Source of the DNA: a virus
Strand: one strand, 5' to 3'
Virus record (IMG/VR): IMGVR_UViG_3300017714_003136
Coordinates: 1 to 46,065 of that record
Length of the DNA: 46,065 bases
Shown one piece after another: positions 2 through 44,656 of the stretch. A program made the translations under genes and the position numbers. The notes beneath the pieces are model-generated. The model did not search any database. It was not told where the DNA came from and worked only from the letters and a program-made list of their open reading frames with translations. Position 1 is the stretch's first letter. Every line of letters begins with the position of its first letter.

Positions 2-1060
2 TCCAAAAGTGATATGAATCTTTATCAAGTTGGTAGCAAAATTGATAACTCATTAGGTTTTAGTAATTTTACATTCTCTAGAACAGAATACGATAGAGAA
101 TATGTTAATGGTACTGAAATTGACACATATGATTCCAATTCAAATACTTTTATTTTTACTAACACAATACAAAATGAAGAAATTGATTTTACACCAGGAA
201 TTGAATATGAACAGTTTGACGGTACGTTTAATAACACAGGATCATACACATCATCTGTAGACAAAGAAGGAAACAATGCATCTGTTTTTTTAAACAGTAA
301 TGTCAATGTTGGAGAAGACTTTTTATACTCAATAGGTATAAGACATGACAATCCAAGTTTGTTTGGCGACTACACAACTTATAGATTGGGTGGAGTATAT
401 ACCGTAACAAATAACTTTAAATTAAAAAGTAATTACACAACAGCAGTAAAAACACCTACGTTATACGAACTGTACGGGGCAGACAGCTATGGTTACAGTG
501 GTAATGCTAACTTACAACCAGAAGAAGCACAAACAATTGATATAGGGTTTGAATATAAGTTTAACAATCATTCGTTGGACTTTGTATATTTTGATACAGA
601 CTTAGATAATATGATCACATATGGTAATAGTACATATTCTAATGCATCAGGAAAATCCAATAGACATGGTGCTGAAATAAAAACAACATCAACGATAAAT
701 GAAAATGTATTTCTTAGAAATGGATTGACTTGGACGATTGCACAAGACAGCAATAACAAACAAGTTACAAGAAGACCTAGGTGGCAATCATTTTCAGCAG
801 TTGATTGGATACTAGGTAAATCAAACAATTCACTTGAATATGTGTATATGGGAGAACATCTAGACATCGATTCATCAACTTATGCTACAATTACTAAACC
901 AGCAGTAGGTGTAGCCAACTTTCATACCAAATATGAAGTAGCAAAAGATACCAATATTGTGTTGTCTTTAAACAATATAACAGACAAAACGTATGAAAGA
1001 CCAGACGGATATAACCAAGATGGACGTAATTTTATGTTAACCTTTAAAAAGAACTTTTAA
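2..1060 (+). CDS. TonB-dependent outer-membrane receptor, C-terminal part (5' end outside window)
   Basis: The reading frame is open from base 2, so the gene starts before the window. About 352 residues are visible, all of them alternating beta-strand barrel sequence. Family hallmarks include VKTPTLYELYG, NLQPEEAQTIDIG, SLNNITDKTYERP and a terminal aromatic residue (KKNF), the outer-membrane insertion signal of barrel proteins. Such receptors import siderophores, haem or cobalamin in Gram-negative bacteria using TonB energy. The plug domain and any signal peptide are outside the window, so the ligand cannot be told; the barrel resembles BtuB and catecholate-receptor types. It is odd beside phage replication genes, but its base composition matches theirs. 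It could be a captured host gene that changes the infected cell's surface or iron supply. Family call is firm; function in the phage is inference. Confidence 0.85.
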   Translation, partial: SKSDMNLYQVGSKIDNSLGFSNFTFSRTEYDREYVNGTEIDTYDSNSNTFIFTNTIQNEEIDFTPGIEYEQFDGTFNNTGSYTSSVDKEGNNASVFLNSNVNVGEDFLYSIGIRHDNPSLFGDYTTYRLGGVYTVTNNFKLKSNYTTAVKTPTLYELYGADSYGYSGNANLQPEEAQTIDIGFEYKFNNHSLDFVYFDTDLDNMITYGNSTYSNASGKSNRHGAEIKTTSTINENVFLRNGLTWTIAQDSNNKQVTRRPRWQSFSAVDWILGKSNNSLEYVYMGEHLDIDSSTYATITKPAVGVANFHTKYEVAKDTNIVLSLNNITDKTYERPDGYNQDGRNFMLTFKKNF

Positions 1061-12747: not shown

Positions 12748-13356
12748 ATGAATATCAAAGAACCAAAAGAAACATCAAAAAAACAAAGTAAACAACCACA
12801 GCAACCGCCTTTACAACCAGGGATGTTAATGTATGAATCTGGTATAATGTATTTTAGTGATGGATTTGATAGTAATACTACAAAACCAGTAATCAATACT
12901 ATTATTGAAAAAAACTTACTACCAAACTCACAAAGACCAAAAGAATTAACATTAGTAATTAATTCACCTGGTGGACAAGTACATTCGGCATTTGCATTGA
13001 TTGACACAATGAAAGGATCAGCCATACCTGTAAAAACAGTAGGACTTGGTATGATTGCAAGTTGTGGATTATTAACGTTTATGAGTGGTGCAAAAGGCAA
13101 ACGTGTAATAACACCTAACACATCAATATTATCACATCAATACAGTTGGGGTAGTGTAGGTAAAGAACATGAATTATTTGCTAGAGTACGTGAATTTGAA
13201 TTGAGTACAGCAAGAATGATTGACCACTATAAGAAATGCACAGGATTAAGTGAAAAGAAAGTTAGAGATATTTTACTACCACCTGAAGATAGATGGTTAA
13301 GTGCCAAAGAAGCAGTTAAATTTGGTATTGCAGATAAAATCGTATCAACATATTAG
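12748..13356 (+). CDS. clpP: ClpP-type serine protease
   Basis: A 202-residue ClpP homologue with the complete catalytic triad: Ser105 in GMIASCG, His130 in SILSHQYSWG and Asp181 in EDRWLSAKEA. It also has the oxyanion segment NSPGGQV and the usual FGIADKI end. The first 25 residues are a Gln/Pro/Lys-rich extension. ClpP forms a barrel and needs a ClpX or ClpA unfoldase; a full clpX lies at 38464 in this window. In phages, ClpP-like proteases can act in head maturation, but the distance from capsid genes and the presence of ClpX favour a protein-turnover role. It lies two bases after the primase gene. Confidence 0.88.
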   Translation: MNIKEPKETSKKQSKQPQQPPLQPGMLMYESGIMYFSDGFDSNTTKPVINTIIEKNLLPNSQRPKELTLVINSPGGQVHSAFALIDTMKGSAIPVKTVGLGMIASCGLLTFMSGAKGKRVITPNTSILSHQYSWGSVGKEHELFARVREFELSTARMIDHYKKCTGLSEKKVRDILLPPEDRWLSAKEAVKFGIADKIVSTY

Positions 13357-30266: not shown

Positions 30267-30445
30267 AAATAGTAGATATAGTAGAAACAAGCAGATTCAT
30301 GGATAAGATACTCAGACCCAAAAGGCTGACTTGTAAAAAACCAGTTAGACGAATGCCTAGAAGACCTAAAAAATTAATTATAAAAAGACCAACAAGAGTA
30401 ATGCCACTATCAAAAACAAACTTTACACAACAAGCTGGAAAATGA
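30263..30445 (+). CDS. Small Arg/Lys/Pro-rich protein
   Basis: A 60-residue, strongly basic protein with repeated KRP/RRP units (LTCKKPVRRMPRRPKK, IKRPTRVMP). It overlaps speD and sufE by 4 bases each (ATGA), so it is translationally coupled and likely real. Disordered; nucleic-acid or ribosome binding is possible. No family recognised. Confidence 0.5.
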   Translation: MKIVDIVETSRFMDKILRPKRLTCKKPVRRMPRRPKKLIIKRPTRVMPLSKTNFTQQAGK

Positions 30446-30867
30446 CAATTAAAGAAAAAATTAAGCATTGGGGTTCTAAATTAGAATTACTTGAAGGTAT
30501 GGAACGACTAGAATATCTAGTTGAACTTGCAGATTATAAAACATCATTACCACGTGAGCAACGAAGTGATGACAAGTTAGTGTTTGGGTGCATATCTCGT
30601 ATATGGGTAAATCCTATAGTTGAAAACGATAAAGTTAATGTTGAGTATGACTCAGACTCAATGATTACAAAAGGTATCACCAGAATAGTATGTGATTGTT
30701 TTACAGGTGGAGATGTTGCAGAAGCAATATCAATACACAGAGATGAATTTAATGATTTACGTATCAAAGAACTTTTAACAGCTCAACGAAGAAATGGATT
30801 AGGTAATCTAATTGAAACTATACAAAAAAAAGTAATTGAATTAAATAAAACAAAACAAACAGTTTAA
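30442..30867 (+). CDS. sufE: SufE-like sulfur acceptor
   Basis: A 141-residue SufE-family protein, which accepts persulfide sulfur from SufS and passes it to the SufBCD scaffold. It matches the family over its length: LEYLVELADYKTSLP, the active-site loop KLVFGCISRIW with Cys50, MITKGITRIV, and NGLGNLIETIQKKV. It is full length compared with E. coli SufE (138). Its partner sufS lies 13 kb downstream; the two-locus arrangement is typical of reshuffled phage genes. Confidence 0.88.
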   Translation: MTIKEKIKHWGSKLELLEGMERLEYLVELADYKTSLPREQRSDDKLVFGCISRIWVNPIVENDKVNVEYDSDSMITKGITRIVCDCFTGGDVAEAISIHRDEFNDLRIKELLTAQRRNGLGNLIETIQKKVIELNKTKQTV

Positions 30868-30882
30868 AAACAAGAGACCTAA

Positions 30883-31410
30883 ATGGAAATATACACTAAC
30901 CCGTACGAAACGTTACATATCAAAAGCGATAATTTTGATTTCAGTAAAGGATTAGTACACTATGACAACGATTTGGAAAAGTTTCAAATAGAAATGATTG
31001 GTTTAATGGAAACAGCATCGGGTATAGGGTTGGCGGCAAATCAAGTTGGAATAACAAAAAGGTTTTTTGCAATAGGAAATGGACGAGATTTTAAAACATT
31101 TGCAAATCCTATCGTAGTATGGAATCCAGAAGTAGTTGAAAGCAGTGAAGAACAAGTTATTGACATTGAAGGTTGTTTAAGTTTTCCGGATGTTTGGGTT
31201 GAAGTGAAAAGACCAAAAGTAGTCACAGTCAAATGGCAAGATATTACTGGAAAAGAGCAAACAGCAGAATTAGATAATATAGAAAGTAAATGTTTTCAAC
31301 ATGAATGTGATCATCTAGATGGTATAACATTTAATAAAAGAGTTTCAAAACTAAAATGGGACATGGCAAAGAAAAAGTCAGAAAAAATTAAAAAAGAATT
31401 GGGCAGATAA
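30883..31410 (+). CDS. def: Peptide deformylase
   Basis: A 175-residue deformylase that removes formyl from new N-termini. All three motifs are intact: GIGLAANQ (47-54), EGCLS with metal ligand Cys98, and HECDH with His140, Glu141 and His144. Marine phages often carry short deformylases; this one is full length. It is an iron enzyme and part of the translation-linked set in the window. It ends one base before the nucleosidase gene. Confidence 0.93.
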   Translation: MEIYTNPYETLHIKSDNFDFSKGLVHYDNDLEKFQIEMIGLMETASGIGLAANQVGITKRFFAIGNGRDFKTFANPIVVWNPEVVESSEEQVIDIEGCLSFPDVWVEVKRPKVVTVKWQDITGKEQTAELDNIESKCFQHECDHLDGITFNKRVSKLKWDMAKKKSEKIKKELGR

Positions 31411-32658: not shown

Positions 32659-32904
32659 ATGTTTGATAATGATAATGAACAAGTAGATGTAGAAATGCAT
32701 GATGTATACGACCAAATTTGGGAGAAAGTAAATCAGTTAAGTAATACTGGTAATGATACTTTAGTAATTGCTGGATCACTAATGGCACAGGCAATTAGAA
32801 TTTATAAATCAGTGCTAGAACCTGAAGAAGTTGAAAGATTACTAACACACATTGTTGATAATCAGGATACAATAGAACCTTTCAAAACGAGACAGTTACA
32901 TTGA
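32659..32904 (+). CDS. Small acidic helical protein, unknown
   Basis: An 81-residue protein with an acidic start (MFDNDNEQVDVEMHD) and two or three helices (YDQIWEKVNQL, DTLVIAGSLMAQAIRIYKSV, PEEVERLLTHIV). No family recognised; the style is that of small marine phage proteins. Preceded by GGAG at 32649-32652 and overlapping the sufD-like start by 4 bases. Confidence 0.6.
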   Translation: MFDNDNEQVDVEMHDVYDQIWEKVNQLSNTGNDTLVIAGSLMAQAIRIYKSVLEPEEVERLLTHIVDNQDTIEPFKTRQLH

Positions 32905-33548
32905 TTCCACAAGTAAAAGAAAAAACAAAATGGGTTGGCACTTATGAAATTGATTCATATGAGTCTTTAGATGTATCTAAAAGACTAAATCGTAGTTACA
33001 GTTTAAAATCAAATACACAACTAGATTTTCAAGTGCATGATGGAGCATCATTGAATCTATTTTTTGAAGATATTAGAGATTTAGTTTTAGATATCAACAT
33101 AGTATTAGGTGAAAATGCTTCCTGCAATATGTATGGATACAGTAAAAATTCAAATACCAAAACTCATGTGATTACAAACGTGTTCCACAAAGGTTGCAAT
33201 TCTATATGTGAACAGGATTTTAGATTTGTTAACAATAATAATGGAACTAGCTCTTTTAAAGGCTTAATTACAATACCTAAAAATATCTCCGGTTGTGAAA
33301 GTCATATGCTAAACAAGAATTTATTACTTGATGAATCAGCATTAGCACATTCAAAGCCAGAATTAGATATTAGAAACTCGCAAACAGTATGTACTCACGG
33401 TAGTACTACCAGCAGTATTGATAAAGAACACAAATTTTATTTACAAAGCAGAGGCATAGGAAAAAAAGAATGTATTGATATAATATCTAATGCATTTTGT
33501 GAAGCTGTTAAAGTAAAATACTTACAAATGAGAAATAAATACAATTAA
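32901..33548 (+). CDS. sufD: Shortened SufD-like Fe-S scaffold protein
   Basis: A 215-residue protein matching the core and C-terminus of SufB/SufD proteins, which form the SufBC2D scaffold. The beta-helix part is visible (DFQVHDGASLNLFFEDI, VLGENASCNMYGYSKN), then LLLDESALAHSKPELDIRN, the SufD signature VCTHGSTTSSID with the conserved His, and FYLQSRGIGKKE. Bacterial SufD has about 420 residues, so the N-terminal half of the fold is missing. Start is TTG at 32901 by 4-base overlap; no upstream in-frame SufD sequence was seen. fdxA follows. It may pair with the full-length SufB at 40958. Confidence 0.82.
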   Translation: MIPQVKEKTKWVGTYEIDSYESLDVSKRLNRSYSLKSNTQLDFQVHDGASLNLFFEDIRDLVLDINIVLGENASCNMYGYSKNSNTKTHVITNVFHKGCNSICEQDFRFVNNNNGTSSFKGLITIPKNISGCESHMLNKNLLLDESALAHSKPELDIRNSQTVCTHGSTTSSIDKEHKFYLQSRGIGKKECIDIISNAFCEAVKVKYLQMRNKYN

Positions 33549-33570
33549 ATTAATAAAGAAGTAACTTAAA

Positions 33571-33933
33571 ATGACATATTACGTAAATCAGGCTTGTATC
33601 ATGTGTAAACATACTGACTGTGTAGAGGTATGCCCAGTTGACTGTTTCTATGAAGGCGAAAACTTTTTAGCAATTAATCCAGACGAATGTATCGACTGTG
33701 GTGTGTGTGAACCAGAATGTCCCGTTGATGCTATCAAACCAGACTCACACGAAGAACCAGATAAAGAAAAGTATTTAGAAATTAATAAAAAATATTCTTC
33801 AGGAGACGATAGATGGCCAGTAATTACCTCTATGATAGATCAACATCCTGAAGCAGAAAAATATAATCCTGATACTTGGAAAGAAGATAAAACAGAGCTA
33901 CTATCGGAGAAACCAGCTGAAAGAGATGAATAA
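33571..33933 (+). CDS. fdxA: FdxA-type 7Fe ferredoxin
   Basis: A 120-residue ferredoxin resembling Azotobacter FdI and alphaproteobacterial FdxA. The first Cys set is [17 protein letters not shown] and the second [12 protein letters not shown], which bind one [3Fe-4S] and one [4Fe-4S] cluster; [15 protein letters not shown] is a family hallmark. The C-terminal 55-residue extension fits the long FdxA form. It sits next to sufD and may supply electrons to cluster assembly, radical SAM or reductase reactions. It is itself an Fe-S client. Confidence 0.92.
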
Positions 33934-38259: not shown

Positions 38260-38466
38260 TGATTCTTTACAACCAAAAGAGAACATAATATCGATTGACT
38301 TATCCGACGAAATTAATATAAACTTAAGAGAAGTAAACAAAGTAATTGATATGGAAGGAATAAATTTGCTAACACAAAAAACACTATCCACGAACGCAAA
38401 AAATACTAAAACTTCAGTATCAAAAAACAAACAATGGATAAATGATTGGTTAAAGAAAAATAAATG
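38260..38466 (+). other. Open frame continuing the coiled-coil protein (frameshifted end)
   Basis: This 207-base stretch has no good start codon in its open frame, yet translates to protein-like sequence (DSLQPKENIISIDLSDEINI, then [26 protein letters not shown]) and ends at an ATGA overlap with clpX. It is in the +1 frame relative to the upstream gene and joins it across the A8 run at 38235-38242. It is best read as the true C-terminus of the upstream protein. An independent gene from ATG near 38351 is the alternative. Confidence 0.5.
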
Positions 38467-39696
38467 AAAAAAGAAACTATGAAGTGCTCTTTCTGCCAAA
38501 AAGAAAGATCAGAAGCAAAGAAATTAATTTCAGGTCCTGCTGATGCTTATATTTGTGACGAGTGTGTAAAACTTTGTTATGACATCATGGCAGAGAATAC
38601 ACCAAGCATGGAAGACATTGGTGAATTTGTAATTCCTGATCCAAAAAAATTAAAAGCATATTTAGATGAACACGTGATAGGACAAGATGAAGCCAAACGT
38701 GTAGTAAGTGTAGCCGTATATAATCATTATAAAAGATTAGCAAACAACTCAGGATCAAAAAATTTAGAAATTGAAAAATCAAATGTTATGATGCTTGGAC
38801 CATCAGGTGTTGGTAAAACATTAATTGCAAAGAAAATTGCTGATTATATTGATGTACCATTTGCCATAGGTGATGCAACAACAATTACTGAAGCTGGATA
38901 TGTGGGCGATGATGTTGAAAACATAATACTTAGATTATTATCTACAGCAGACTTTGATGTTAAAAAAGCTGAAAGAGGAATTATATACATTGATGAGATT
39001 GATAAAAAATCACGTAAATCAGAAAGCACATCAATAACAAGAGATGTATCTGGTGAAGGTGTACAACAAGCATTATTGAAAATGATTGAAGGTACGGTAG
39101 TTAGAGTACCACCGCAAGGCGGAAGAAAACATCCATCACAAGAAATGATTGAAATAGATACAAGCAATATATTGTTTATATGTGGAGGAGCATTTGTTGA
39201 CTTAGAAAAAACAATTGAAAGAAGACAGAACAGTAATACTGGAATAGGATTTTCTAGAAATGTTGAAAAGTCTAAAGCAATACACCAAGATGCTGAACCA
39301 GAAGATTTAATTAAGTTTGGACTTATACCTGAATTAGTTGGTCGTTTACCAGTACTGGTTGCTTGTCATAAACTTGAAAAGTCAGATCTATCAAAAATAT
39401 TAACGGACACAAAAAATTCATTAATTAAACAAACACAAAGATTGTTTGAAATGGAAGATATAAAATTAGATTTTTCACCAGAAGCTGTAATAGAAATAGT
39501 AGACAGAGCTCATAAGAAAGGCTTAGGTGCCAGAGGATTAAAATCAGTTTTAGAAAAAGCATTGTTAAATACACAATATGAATTGCCAACTTATGCAGAC
39601 CAAGGTGTTAAAGAAATTCATGTTAACAAAGAGACATTTGATGGTGGTAGTCCATTACTGATATACGAAGATAAACAAGATAAACAAGGTACATGA
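38464..39696 (+). CDS. clpX: ClpX unfoldase
   Basis: A 410-residue full-length ClpX: the zinc-binding domain with Cys8, Cys11, Cys31 and Cys34, Walker A GPSGVGKT (112-119), pore loop AGYVGDDVE, Walker [10 protein letters not shown], and a sensor-2 [14 protein letters not shown]. ClpX delivers tagged proteins, including tmRNA-tagged ones ending LAA, to ClpP; both clpP and a tmRNA are in this window. An IGF-like loop for ClpP docking reads NTGIGFSRN. Full bacterial architecture in a phage is unusual. It overlaps infC by 4 bases. Confidence 0.92.
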
Positions 39697-40238
39697 GAAG
39701 ACAAAAATTAACTAATTACGAACAGGCTAAAGAAACAGCACTAACTAATCATAAGATTAAGTCTAAAGAAGTGAGATTATTAGTAGAAAACGATTCTCAA
39801 ATTATTTCAACAGATAGAGCAATACAACAAGCAGAGCAACAAGGTTTGGATTTAGTATGCATAAGTCCAACAGCAACACCGCCTGTTTGTAAAATTATGG
39901 ATGTAGGAAAGTACCTATATGAACAAAAGAAAAAACAAAAAGCACTAGACAAGAAAAATAGAGAATCTATTGTTAGTTTAAAAGAAATCCAATTTAGGCC
40001 AAACACCGGTGATGGCGACTTAAAAGTAAAAGCTAATAAAATAGATGAGTTATTACAAAGTGGAGACAAAGTAAAATTGGTTATGAAAGTCAAAGGTAGA
40101 GAAAATGCCATGAAAGATCACTGTATGGAAAGATTCCAACGATTTCTTACATTTGTTAACAAGTACGAGTTGGACAGTAAACCCAATTGGCAAGGAAATA
40201 AAGTTCTTGCAATTTTAAAAAAATCTGCTATAATATAA
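39693..40238 (+). CDS. infC: Translation initiation factor IF-3
   Basis: A 181-residue IF3 with both domains: N-terminal [21 protein letters not shown], linker region [20 protein letters not shown] (family signature), and C-terminal [22 protein letters not shown]3 binds the 30S subunit, blocks premature 50S joining and controls start selection, including discrimination against leaderless mRNAs. It starts in an ATGA overlap with clpX and is followed at once by rpsU. Its last codons contain the rpsU promoter. Confidence 0.93.
40207..40234 (+). promoter_or_regulatory. Promoter ending 7 nt before the bS21 ATG
   Basis: TTGCAA (40207-40212), 16-base spacer and TATAAT (40229-40234), inside infC. 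The ATG at 40241 coincides with the predicted start site, so a leaderless mRNA is expected. Confidence 0.7.
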
Positions 40239-40240
40239 CT

Positions 40241-40618
40241 ATGAATCAAAACAAACCTAGAAAAAACTACGAGATCAAAAACTTTCAAAACTTCGATAAG
40301 CCAAAGAAAAGAAAGTTTGACACACCTAAACCTGAAGGCTTACAAGTATATGTGCGTGAAGGTGAAGATGTCATGAAGGCTTGGAGAAAACTTAAGAAAA
40401 AAATCTTAAGAGATGGACTAATGCAAGAAATTAAAGATAGACAGTATTACCAAAAACCAAGTGAAAAAAAGAAGATCAAAAAAGATCAACAAACACGTAG
40501 AGCTCAAAAAGAGAGAAAAGAAAAAGCATTTGAGATGGGTTTAACTTATAAAGGAATGAATCCTTTAAAACAGCCTAGACGTAAAAAAGCCAAACCAACC
40601 AATAGAACTCGTTCGTAG
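40241..40618 (+). CDS. rpsU: Ribosomal protein bS21 homologue (extended)
   Basis: A 125-residue basic protein whose central part (about residues 33-95) matches bS21: LQVYVREGEDVMKAWRKLKK, ILRDGLMQEIKDRQYYQKPS and KDQQTRRAQKER. E. coli bS21 has 71 residues; here there is a 30-residue N-terminal and a 30-residue basic C-terminal extension. bS21 sits on the 30S platform near the anti-Shine-Dalgarno and affects mRNA binding. It is the ribosomal protein most often found in phages, including marine ones. It sits next to infC and is itself predicted to be leaderless. Confidence 0.85.
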   Translation: MNQNKPRKNYEIKNFQNFDKPKKRKFDTPKPEGLQVYVREGEDVMKAWRKLKKKILRDGLMQEIKDRQYYQKPSEKKKIKKDQQTRRAQKERKEKAFEMGLTYKGMNPLKQPRRKKAKPTNRTRS

Positions 40619-40957: not shown

Positions 40958-42388
40958 ATGTCAGATACTGAAACACTTATTAATAAAAAATACAAAGAAG
41001 GATTTGTCACTGATGTGGAATCTGATACCCTACCACCAGGGTTAAATGAAGATACTGTAAAAAGAATATCAGAGATCAAGAACGAGCCAGAATGGCTGTT
41101 TAAATGGCGTTTAAGGGCTTTTAAGCGGTGGTTAACAATGAAAGAGCCCAATTGGTCCACATTAAACATTAACCCCATTAATTACCAGGATATATCGTAT
41201 TATTCAGCACCTAAACCTTTGTTGGATTCATATGATGATGTTGATCCTAAGATTAAAGAGGACTTTGAAAAGCTAGGAATTCCATTAAATGAAAGACTTA
41301 AATTAGCAGGAGTGGCCGTTGATGCAGTATTTGATTCAGTATCTGTTGCAACAACATTCAAAGAAGACTTGGCAAAACAAGGAATTATATTTTGTTCATT
41401 TAGTGAAGCAGTACAAGAGCATCCAGAATTAGTTAAACAATATCTTGGTACAGTTATACCTCCAAGTGATAATTATTTTGCTTGTTTAAATGCGGCTGTT
41501 TTCACAGATGGATCTTTTGCTTATATTCCAAAAGGTGTTAGATGTCCATTGGAACTATCAACATACTTTAGAATTAATCAAGCAAACACAGGACAGTTTG
41601 AAAGAACATTGATTGTTGCTGAAGATGATTCTTACGTGAGTTATTTAGAAGGTTGTACAGCACCGATGCGTGATGAGAATCAATTACACGCGGCCTGTGT
41701 TGAGATAGTAATAAAAGATAGAGCTGAAGTAAAATATTCAACAATACAAAATTGGTATCCAGGTGATCCAGAAACTGGCAAAGGTGGAGTATATAATTTT
41801 GTAACTAAACGTGGTTTATGCAAAGGAGAGAAAAGTAAATTGTCATGGACACAGTTAGAGACAGGTTCGGCCTTGACATGGAAATATCCAAGTTGTATTT
41901 TAAAAGGAGATGATTCGCAAGGTGAGTTTTATTCCGTAGCAGTTAGCACAGGTAAACAACAAGCAGACACAGGAACTAAAATGTTTCACTTAGGTAAAAA
42001 TACAAAATCAACTATTATATCAAAAGGAATATCTGCAAAACAAGGAGAGCAAACATATAGAGGATTAGTTACTGTTGGTAGAAAAGCCGCTGGAGCAAGA
42101 AACTATACACAATGCGATTCAATGTTAATTGGTGATGAATGTCTAGCTAAAACAATACCTTATATCAAAAGTAATAATTTAGAAGCATCATTGGAACATG
42201 AAGCAACAACATCAAAAATTAGTGAAGACCAGTTATTTTATTTGAGGTCAAGAGGATTAGATGAACAAGATGCTGTTAATATGATTGTAAATGGTTTTGT
42301 AAAAGAAGTAACAAAAAAATTACCTATGGAATTTGCCGTAGAAGCCAATAAGTTACTAGAAGTCACATTAGAAGGAAGTGTTGGATAA
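40958..42388 (+). CDS. sufB: SufB Fe-S cluster scaffold subunit
   Basis: A 476-residue, full-length SufB of the SufBC2D complex, where sulfur and iron are assembled into [4Fe-4S] clusters. Family signatures include [68 protein letters not shown] with the conserved Cys, and [21 protein letters not shown]. The start follows tRNA-Val by 13 bases. It overlaps sufC by one base. Full length and conserved sites suggest a working protein. Confidence 0.95.
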
Positions 42389-43128
42389 TGTTAGAAATTA
42401 ACAACTTAATAACATCAGTAGATGAAAAAACCATATTAAATGGATTAACGTTAAAAGTCAATCCAGGTGAAGTTCATGCAATAATGGGACCAAACGGCTC
42501 AGGAAAAAGTACACTATCAAATACACTAATGGGAAAAGATGGATATGTACCTGATAGTGGATCAGTTACTTTTAAAGGAAAAAATTTACTAGAAATGGAA
42601 GTTGAAGAAAGAGCCAGAGAAGGAATGTTTCTTGCATTACAATATCCAACAGAAATACCAGGAGTAAACACAAATACATTTTTAAGATTTTCAGTTAATG
42701 CTATAAGAAAACATCAAGGCAAAGAGCCTTTGGATTCGTTAGAGTTTGTATCTCAAATGAAAGAACAAGCAAAACAGTTGGCTATCAGTAATGAAATGTT
42801 AACAAGATCTTTAAACACAGGTTTCTCAGGCGGTGAAAAAAAGAAAAATGAAGTATTACAGATGTCATTATTACAACCTGAACTAATTATAATGGATGAA
42901 ACAGATTCGGGTTTAGATGTTGATGCTTTAAGAATTGTATCAGATGGTGTTAACAAATTAAGAAACAAAAACAGATCTTTTATCATAATCACACATTACC
43001 AAAGACTATTAGATTATATCAAACCAGATTTTGTACATATTCTATCAAATGGTAAAATCATTAAAACAGGCGATGCATCATTGGCATTAGAAGTTGAAAA
43101 AACTGGATATAGCTTGTCCAATGATTAA
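42388..43128 (+). CDS. sufC: SufC ATPase
   Basis: A 246-residue ABC-type ATPase of the SUF scaffold. Walker A GPNGSGKS is at 34-41, the signature reads FSGGEKKKNE, Walker B IIMDETDSGLDVDAL and the switch His lies in IIITHYQRLLDYI. It is full length and follows sufB directly, as in bacterial suf operons. The predicted promoter of RNase P RNA lies at its end. Confidence 0.95.
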   Translation: MLEINNLITSVDEKTILNGLTLKVNPGEVHAIMGPNGSGKSTLSNTLMGKDGYVPDSGSVTFKGKNLLEMEVEERAREGMFLALQYPTEIPGVNTNTFLRFSVNAIRKHQGKEPLDSLEFVSQMKEQAKQLAISNEMLTRSLNTGFSGGEKKKNEVLQMSLLQPELIIMDETDSGLDVDALRIVSDGVNKLRNKNRSFIIITHYQRLLDYIKPDFVHILSNGKIIKTGDASLALEVEKTGYSLSND

Positions 43129-43142
43129 ATATATGTTATAAT
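43114..43142 (+). promoter_or_regulatory. Promoter for RNase P RNA and tRNA-Asp
   Basis: TTGTCC (43114-43119), 17-base spacer and TATAAT (43137-43142), partly inside sufC. The expected start at about 43149 matches the 5' end of the P1 helix. Confidence 0.7.
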
Positions 43143-43148
43143 ATGAAT

Positions 43149-43305
43149 TACAATGTAATCGGACTATCGCTGGAAACAGAGGAAAGTCAGGACACAGGTA
43201 GAAATGTGCAAGTCCAAATAGAGTGTCAACAACTACCGGGACACAGGGTAGGACGCAAAGATAAATGATAGTTAGAACAGAATCCTGCTTATTGATTACA
43301 CTTGT
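43149..43305 (+). ncRNA. rnpB: Miniature RNase P RNA
   Basis: All hallmarks of the bacterial catalytic core are seen. P1 is TGTAATC/GATTACA (43154-43160, 43294-43300). P2 is GACTATC/GATAGTT (43162-43168, 43267-43273). A tiny P3 is CTG-GAAA-CAG (43170-43179). The GAGGAAAG segment (43179-43186) precedes P4, which pairs AAG, bulged T43187, CAGGA (43188-43192) with TCCTG (43283-43287) and CTT (43288-43290). ACAGAA (43277-43282) and AGATAAATGA before P2' also match conserved positions. Only about 75 bases replace the specificity domain and P5-P18, so the RNA is about 155 bases against 350-400 in bacteria. tRNA-Asp begins about 7-11 bases later on the same transcript. Ends are estimates. Confidence 0.85.
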
Positions 43306-43311
43306 AGGAGG

Positions 43312-43388
43312 GGGGGTGTAGCTCAGTTGGTTAGAGCGATCGCCTGTCACGCGATAGGTCGAGGGTTCGAGTCCCTTCACTCCCGCCA
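43312..43388 (+). tRNA. tRNA-Asp (GTC anticodon)
   Basis: A 77-base tRNA with acceptor GGGGGTG/CACTCCC, discriminator G, encoded CCA, T-loop TTCGAGT and anticodon stem ATCGC/GCGAT around loop CTGTCAC, giving GTC. It directly follows the RNase P RNA and is likely cut from it by RNase P. Confidence 0.95.
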
Positions 43389-43448
43389 CAACTTTATTAA
43401 AAATACATAATATGAAACTACAACTTTATTAAATATATAATATGAAAC
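43388..43448 (+). repeat. Tandem repeat at the sufS start
   Basis: Two near-identical copies of about 30 bases (43388-43418 and 43420-43448), each opening ACAACTTTATTAAA and ending ATAATATGAAAC, differ by a two-base indel and a substitution. The first starts at the last base of tRNA-Asp. The first copy's ATG (43412) opens a six-codon frame MKLQLY that stops at 43432; the second copy's ATG is the sufS start. Confidence 0.7.
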
Positions 43449-44656
43449 ACATTAGAGATCAATTTCCAATTTTTAAAAAAATGTTGCCTAACGGAAAGCC
43501 GTTGGTTTATTTTGATAGTGCCAATTCAGCACAAAAACCCCAACGTGTGATAGATAGGTTAACTAAATTTTATACAGAAGAATACAGTAGTGTAGGAAGA
43601 AGTATACACCAATTAAGTATCAATGCAACAGAATGTTTAGAACAAAGTCGTATAACTGTAGCAAAATTTTTAAATGCAAGTTCTGAAGAAGAAATAATTT
43701 TTACTAAAAGTGCCACCGAAGCAATAAATTCAATAGCAGAGAGCTTTGGAAGAACACAAAAAAAGCCATATGAAATAATTTGTACTGAACTAGAACATCA
43801 TTCGAATTATCTTCCATGGCATTTGCAACGACTACAAGGTAAAGCAAGTCTTAAATTTATTCCTTTGAAAGATGATTGCAGTTTGGATATAGATAAACTA
43901 GAAGAACTAATTACAAAAAAAACAAAAATCATTGCTATAACTCAATTATCAAATGTAACAGGTGAAATTATTGACGTTAAAAAAGTTTGTGAAATAGCAC
44001 ACAAAAAAGGAATAGCAGTATTTGTTGATGGTACACAGGCGGCACCACATATGAGAGTTGATGTTCAAGATATAGATTGTGACTTTTATTGTATTAGCGG
44101 CCACAAGATGTATGGACCATCAGGTGTAGGAGCTCTATACGCCAAAAAGAAATGGATCGATGAATTGACACCATATATGTCAGGCGGCGGAACAGTTGCA
44201 AAAGTTACAACAGATAAAGTTGAGTATGCTTCAGGTCCAAAAAAATGGGAAGCAGGTACACATCCTATTGCAGAAATTGTAGCCTTAAAAGAAGCAATTG
44301 ACTTTTACTATGACAATGACTTTGATGCTATGTTAAAGTATGAGCATGAGTTAGTTGAATATGCTTATAAGAAAATGATTGATAGGGGAGATATGCAAGT
44401 ACTTTGTAATGGTAAACCAAATGCAGTACTTTCATTTAATCTAGATGGAATACATAATTCAGATTTGGCAATGTTTTTAGATCAATATGGTATTGCAACA
44501 AGACCAGGACATCATTGCACACAGATACTTCATAACAAATTTGGATTATCAGGATCATGTAGAATATCTTTAGGAGTATATAATACACGTGAGGAGTTAG
44601 ATTACTTTTTTGAATGTATTGACAGTATTAAAAAAGCTGTAATAAAAGGAAAATAA
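43442..44656 (+). CDS. sufS: SufS cysteine desulfurase
   Basis: A 404-residue group II cysteine desulfurase, which takes sulfur from cysteine and hands it to SufE. The PLP lysine is Lys222 in CISGHKMYGPSGVG; the active-site Cys359 lies in TRPGHHCTQ. Other family marks are YFDSANSAQKP, TKSATEAIN, ELEHHSNYLPW and FVDGTQAAPHMRVD. It is full length. It is on the same strand after sufB, sufC, RNase P RNA and tRNA-Asp. No Shine-Dalgarno sequence precedes its ATG. Confidence 0.95.
   Translation: MKHIRDQFPIFKKMLPNGKPLVYFDSANSAQKPQRVIDRLTKFYTEEYSSVGRSIHQLSINATECLEQSRITVAKFLNASSEEEIIFTKSATEAINSIAESFGRTQKKPYEIICTELEHHSNYLPWHLQRLQGKASLKFIPLKDDCSLDIDKLEELITKKTKIIAITQLSNVTGEIIDVKKVCEIAHKKGIAVFVDGTQAAPHMRVDVQDIDCDFYCISGHKMYGPSGVGALYAKKKWIDELTPYMSGGGTVAKVTTDKVEYASGPKKWEAGTHPIAEIVALKEAIDFYYDNDFDAMLKYEHELVEYAYKKMIDRGDMQVLCNGKPNAVLSFNLDGIHNSDLAMFLDQYGIATRPGHHCTQILHNKFGLSGSCRISLGVYNTREELDYFFECIDSIKKAVIKGK

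Follow-up and report, generated by a model that had tools for sequence, protein, structure and literature searches.

The window, the whole 46,065-nt stretch of viral DNA analysed here, carries on its plus strand a 158-nt RNA gene that matches the covariance model of bacterial type A RNase P RNA (RF00010), and this gene stands between a sigma70-type promoter motif and a tRNA-Asp (Table 1). RNase P RNA is the ancient RNA enzyme that trims tRNAs, and it is among the few RNAs thought to predate the last common ancestor. The protein genes of the window are of T4-type phages and include UvsX/RecA-like, UvsY, UvsW, gp32-like, primase, DnaB-type helicase and ribonucleotide reductase genes. An Infernal search (cmscan, lenient settings) aligned window positions 43151-43307 to all 367 positions of RF00010 with 69.3 bits and E = 6.4e-21, and bacterial type A is the best-scoring family of its clan. 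The curated (gathering) cut-off of RF00010 is 100 bits, so a default Rfam scan misses the RNA; the low score is plausibly due to the absence of the specificity (S) domain. An archaeal type T identity was rejected, since the best clan family is bacterial type A and the carriers are T4-like bacteriophages.

Table 1. Positions of the RNA gene, its structural elements and neighbouring or accompanying features in the window.
Feature	Position	Strand	Details
TonB-dependent receptor C-terminal barrel	14-1060		At the phage contig edge
Genes for ClpP-like protease, peptide deformylase, ClpX, IF3, ribosomal protein S21	12748-13356, 30883-31410, 38464-40618
SUF gene regions	30442-30867, 32901-33933, 40958-43128, 43442-44656		SufE, SufD-like fragment, ferredoxin, SufB, SufC, SufS
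tRNA-Ser	32554		RNase P RNA absent here
Sigma70-type promoter	43114-43142	+	-35 TTGTCC 43114-43119, 17-nt spacer, -10 TATAAT 43137-43142; 10/12 consensus bases
S-domain-less type A RNase P RNA	43149-43306	+	RF00010 E = 6.4e-21; covariation in relatives
P1 5' strand	43149-43160	+	Pairs with 43294-43306, C43301 bulged; 4/7 scored pairs change on both sides
P2 5' strand	43163-43168	+	Pairs with 43267-43272; 100% of cells paired, 3 pairs doubly changed
Minimal P3, CUG-GAAA-CAG	43170-43179	+	3 bp, 43170-43172/43177-43179, GAAA loop
P4 5' strand AAG(U)CAGGA	43184-43192	+	Bulged U43187; pairs with 43283-43290; invariant in 7/7
P5 hairpin CACA-(8 nt)-UGUG	43193-43208	+	Stem 43193-43196/43205-43208; RF00010 alignment, covariation
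P6 5' strand GGUAG	43197-43201	+	Pseudoknot with CUACC 43233-43237
P15-P16-P17 module	43212-43254	+	P15 43212-43215/43251-43254; P16-17 43223-43227/43240-43244; P15 and P16 covary
L15 GGGUA	43246-43250	+	Invariant in 7/7 S-domain-less RNAs
J15/2 AGAUAAAUGA	43259-43268	+	J18/2 of larger RNAs; conserved catalytic-core segment
P4 3' strand UCCUGCUU	43283-43290	+	RF00010 alignment; covariation data
Leader GGAGG between P1 and tRNA	43307-43311	+	5 nt; 0-7 nt in relatives
tRNA-Asp(GUC), CCA encoded	43312-43388	+	ARAGORN, Rfam
Imperfect direct repeat ACAACTTTATTAAA...ATAATATGAAAC	43389-43447		By eye; between tRNA-Asp and SufS

Anatomy and conservation of the RNA

The window RNA has the catalytic core of the family, with P4 and its bulged U, the conserved segments flanking P4 and J18/2, together with the hallmarks of type A, which are the P6 pseudoknot, P15-P17 and the GGU of L15. 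The specificity domain (P7-P14) and P18 are absent, so the RNA is a type A variant and not an ordinary type A RNA. An earlier note had read P1, P2, a tiny P3 and P4 with its bulged U from the bases, and these helices hold and are backed by the relatives described below. Its statement that the specificity domain is nearly gone also stands, with about 75 nt between the P4 5' strand and P2'; the 8-nt loop of P5 occupies the place of the entire domain. That note overlooked P6, formed between GGUAG of the P5 loop and CUACC of the P17 loop. J15/2 directly follows P15, and the 3-bp GNRA form of P3 is also seen in three relatives (L001, L008 and L012). The 3' CCA of tRNA pairs with L15. Judged from this anatomy, the window RNA is the catalytic domain of RNase P RNA alone. 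In common with type A RNAs (rnpB, E. coli M1) it has P1-P6, P15-P17, the P4 bulged U, the L15 GGU, the segments GAGGAAAG, AGAURAAUGA and ACAGAA, and a full-length alignment to the model. It differs in the loss of the S domain and P18, in a P3 of only 3 bp, in its length (158 against about 370 nt), and in being a phage gene with a tRNA directly after it and no RnpA gene found alongside.

Relatives were sought by degenerate-pattern scans of IMG/VR, and looser later scans gave the identical set. Six further viral contigs carry the S-domain-less form, L001 (328 kb), L008 (243 kb), L012, L002, L003 and L004, and their RNAs match RF00010 with E values from 7.5e-17 to 9.7e-22. The pattern matches L005-L007, L009, L010 and L013 were discarded as false positives; they are one near-identical stretch without the remaining RNase P RNA, probably coding sequence. 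A blastn comparison of the window RNA with 50,697 phage records returned nothing but 40 bases matching by chance in the capsid gene of a microvirus. The sample thus comprises seven sequences in two sub-clusters. In their alignment 94.9% of cells pair, and 15 of the 42 pairs are changed on both sides. The covariation score is 0.336 against a shuffle mean of 0.144, a value that none of 500 shuffles reached, and slid control alignments attain at most 0.083. Covariation is seen in P1, P2, P5, P15 and P16. P6 is misaligned for L002-L004 in this count and was therefore scored sequence by sequence, where it forms a perfect helix of 5-6 bp in all seven RNAs (GGUAG/CUACC, GGCAG/CUGCC, GGUGG/CCACC or GUUGAG/CUCAAC). 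In a set of 19 virus-contig RNase P RNAs, pair 2 of P4 is A-U, G-C or C-G, and P4 is fully paired in 18. Compensatory changes, for which the earlier note had looked to P1, P2 and P4, are thus present in the first two helices within the seven and in P4 across the 19. The identification as RNase P RNA is upheld by the end-to-end family match and by these covarying relatives.

A score under the Rfam curated cut-off and the loss of one domain could also point to a functionless copy of a host RNase P RNA gene, either in decay or carried along as a passenger. Such a copy would not be expected to show the covariation, the invariant core, the promoter motif in all seven and the like architecture in divergent phages, and we reject this reading as highly implausible.

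Carrier phages and other phage RNase P RNAs

The T4 capsid family gp23 was found in G001, G005, G011, G014, G015 and DLP_6 and in none of 14 cellular control genomes; G001 and G005 both have TerL in addition. G001 (328 kb), which carries L001, shows a 75-bp terminal overlap, and its map is therefore probably closed. It contains 15 distinct tRNAs, all CCA-encoding, a permuted tmRNA and one RNase P RNA. The window and G005 (243 kb) are collinear over about 18.6-30.8 kb. The phage origin claimed for the record is confirmed by the T4-type genes in the window and by gp23 and TerL in the related G001 and G005, and on gene content the carriers of the S-domain-less RNA are T4-like jumbo phages. An exact-pattern scan of 84,980 species of bacteria and archaea, which variants such as L008 would escape, gave no match to the S-domain-less form, and 385 genomes from the class of G019 gave none with our own covariance model, under stricter filters and with no positive control there. 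Within the limits of these cell-genome searches, S-domain-less type A RNA appears here only in phages. The window is a fragment from a metagenome, and many of its genes are of bacterial type (SUF, ClpX, IF3, S21), as would also be seen if it were an assembly or binning artefact or stemmed from an uncultured bacterium whose RNase P RNA has the mini form. Against this, the seven contigs are concordant, the window is collinear with a genome that has gp23 and TerL, G001 closes on itself, and the searches of cell genomes found no such form; we consider the chance of this origin negligible and reject an artefact.

The window encodes most of a SUF iron-sulphur pathway, and SufS is also present in the related jumbo phages G001 and G005. 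Protein searches with SufS and SufE for further phage relatives added few new contigs. The nearest bacterial matches of the window SufB are two contigs of the MAG 'Rickettsiales bacterium MED657', L044 and L045 (NZHE01000009.1 and NZHE01000011.1). These have near-identical SufB regions and phage-like neighbours and are probably phage DNA binned with the bacterium; the RNase P RNA of the MAG itself is normal. The genes for the ClpP-like protease, ClpX, deformylase, IF3 and S21, together with the tmRNA and the tRNAs, make up a large set for translation and proteolysis.

RNase P RNAs of graded sizes occur in at least 15 phage-like contigs of IMG/VR. In L011 the S domain is shrunk to one small hairpin, six RNAs (L014, L019, L028, L029, L030 and L032) have a mini S domain with the common segments CUGCUUAAGGUGGGAG ... 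CACCACCG ... AGCAG, and L024 and L031 are near full size. The mini-S-domain class suggests, from sequence comparison, a stepwise loss of the specificity domain. The cultured Stenotrophomonas phage DLP_6 (KU682439.2) has an unannotated RNase P RNA at about 105774-106022 (L040:1302-1550; 54.7 bits, E = 3e-14), which was located through 27 bases matching a phage RNA of the mini-S-domain class, and a tRNA-Arg begins within 4 nt of its end. Comparable short matches also turned up in Enterocloster phage CB457P2, Tunturi_5 and LR745208, but these do not represent RNase P RNA. The earlier view that a phage with its own RNase P RNA would be very unusual needs changing in the light of these contigs and DLP_6. 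Curated cut-offs make annotation overlook such genes, even in a cultured phage, and the DLP_6 RNA makes the idea of a phage RNase P testable in culture. A full-text literature search that covered few subscription journals and preprints returned no report of a phage-encoded RNase P RNA. Huge phages are known to encode tRNAs, tmRNA and translation factors, an apparatus that is phage-borne like the window RNA, in a survey that does not mention RNase P (PMC7162821). Among the closest published cases, besides archaeal type T, Mycobacterium austroafricanum has extra RNase P RNA copies with an altered specificity domain, for which horizontal transfer is suspected (PMC9569102); these lie on a bacterial chromosome, are not shown to be phage-borne and are not S-domain-less, unlike the phage RNA.

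Promoter and tRNA joint

The promoter motif is present in all seven S-domain-less RNAs, with 10-12 of 12 consensus bases and a 17-nt spacer, and random zones attain a comparable score in 0.3-2.8% of cases. The -10 element ends 34-38 nt 5' of GAGGAAAG in each of the seven, so transcription would begin at the 5' end of P1; in the window the start predicted from the motif is at about 43149-43150. At the other end, a tRNA starts 0-7 nt past P1 in 7/7 RNAs by eye measurement (0 in L001, 5 in the window). The reported joining of the RNA to a tRNA is thus kept in all six close relatives, as well as in several more distant phage RNAs, while the spacer of about 11 bases given for the window is corrected to 5 nt with the full P1 helix. 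The downstream tRNA is Asp, Ala, Ser or Gln, and in L002-L004 there are 2-4 tRNAs in line. The RNA precedes tRNA-Asp in the window, tRNA-Ser in L008 (G005) and L012 (G007) and tRNA-Ala in L001 (G001). G005 and G007 have the order tRNA-Val-tRNA-Asp-SufS without an adjoining RNase P RNA, and the window has its tRNA-Ser without one. Because the partner tRNA differs among related phages and the corresponding tRNAs stand elsewhere without the RNA, the cassette of promoter and RNA has changed place while retaining its tRNA contact. A tRNA also lies directly downstream of more distant RNase P RNAs located in tRNA clusters of virus contigs (L011, L014, L021, L024, L031, L018, L020, L035 and DLP_6). 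Six larger phage RNAs (L025, L033, L028, L029, L032 and L019) have none directly downstream, so the linkage is not universal among phage RNase P RNAs.

Proposed function and comparison with known systems

We consider it likely that the RNA is a minimal type A ribozyme made of the catalytic domain only, which a T4-like jumbo phage encodes joined to a tRNA and which borrows host RnpA to mature the phage tRNAs. From its own promoter it would be transcribed together with the tRNA, as the 5' portion of a joint transcript. It retains the active site (P4, J15/2), J5/15, the P6 tertiary pairing and the CCA-binding L15, and would most likely join the host RnpA protein. The complex could then cut the leaders off the CCA-bearing tRNAs of the phage, and off the tmRNA, during infection, with the L15 GGU pairing to the 3' CCA that these tRNAs encode. 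Some phages would thereby bring the catalytic half of tRNA maturation along, presumably to their benefit. The cut that frees the 5' end of the downstream tRNA would also generate the 3' end of the RNase P RNA; it would occur in trans, carried out by a second copy or by the RNase P of the host.

The earlier note had proposed a cis self-maturing unit. The tight joint, conserved in all seven, would suit a one-shot RNA that cleaves solely its attached tRNA. However, cis cleavage is disfavoured because the linkers are only 0-7 nt: the tRNA is attached to the distal end of P1, which can reach 14 bp, and in L001 it begins at the P1 end with little room to reach its own active site. The 14 other tRNAs of G001 would go unserved, and the tRNAs in line in L002-L004 also speak against such a unit. 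We therefore regard the cis arrangement as improbable and unsupported, cleavage in trans being the simpler explanation.

The main rival to the ribozyme reading is that the RNA acts as a decoy, titrating host RnpA without cutting tRNAs, so that tRNA maturation in the host is halted or diverted. A search for RnpA that was positive in 10 of 14 control genomes detected no such gene in any of 19 virus records. The RNA must therefore either rely on RnpA from the host or compete for it, and it retains that part of the catalytic domain which binds protein (P2-P4, J15/2). A protein sponge needs no L15, P15-P17 or P6, yet all are maintained, and the strict position ahead of a tRNA fits processing; a decoy seems unlikely to us, though less so than the cis arrangement. 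An active ribozyme with host RnpA is favoured because the anatomy matches that of an active engineered E. coli RNA. E. coli RNase P RNA without its S domain is active with and without protein, at a rate about 100-fold slower than the full RNA, which weakens the case for an advantage over host RNase P, and in this catalytic-domain RNA disruption of a P6-like pairing is harmful whereas removal of P18 is not (PMC5839562). The constructs Eco CP RPR, delP18 and P3Mini of that study have nearly the same architecture, with P3 minimised and P18 deleted; they are laboratory-made, and nature seems to have an equivalent in the phage RNA.

RNase P RNA of type T, from Pyrobaculum and its relatives, is another natural case of a lost specificity domain (Lai et al. 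2010; described in PMC7191817). Type T is archaeal, about 195-215 nt long and works with archaeal proteins, whereas the phage RNA is of bacterial type A, has P6 and is shorter; we take the two losses to be independent. Bacterial RNase P RNAs have been described as diversifying largely by RNA gain (PMC12974513). A natural bacterial-type RNA consisting of the catalytic domain alone corresponds both to laboratory-built minimal ribozymes and to the older core that has been proposed, and offers a natural system for testing what the specificity domain is for. In larger RNAs this domain reads the T loop of tRNA, and P18 docks on it. A more tentative extension, which we hold possible but doubtful, is that captured RnpA turns host RNase P into a phage form that reads only the acceptor stem and CCA and so favours phage tRNAs, encoded in a movable cassette always placed before a tRNA that supplies the 3' end of the RNA. 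Downstream of the tRNA-Asp, each copy of the imperfect direct repeat contains a -10-like ATAATAT.
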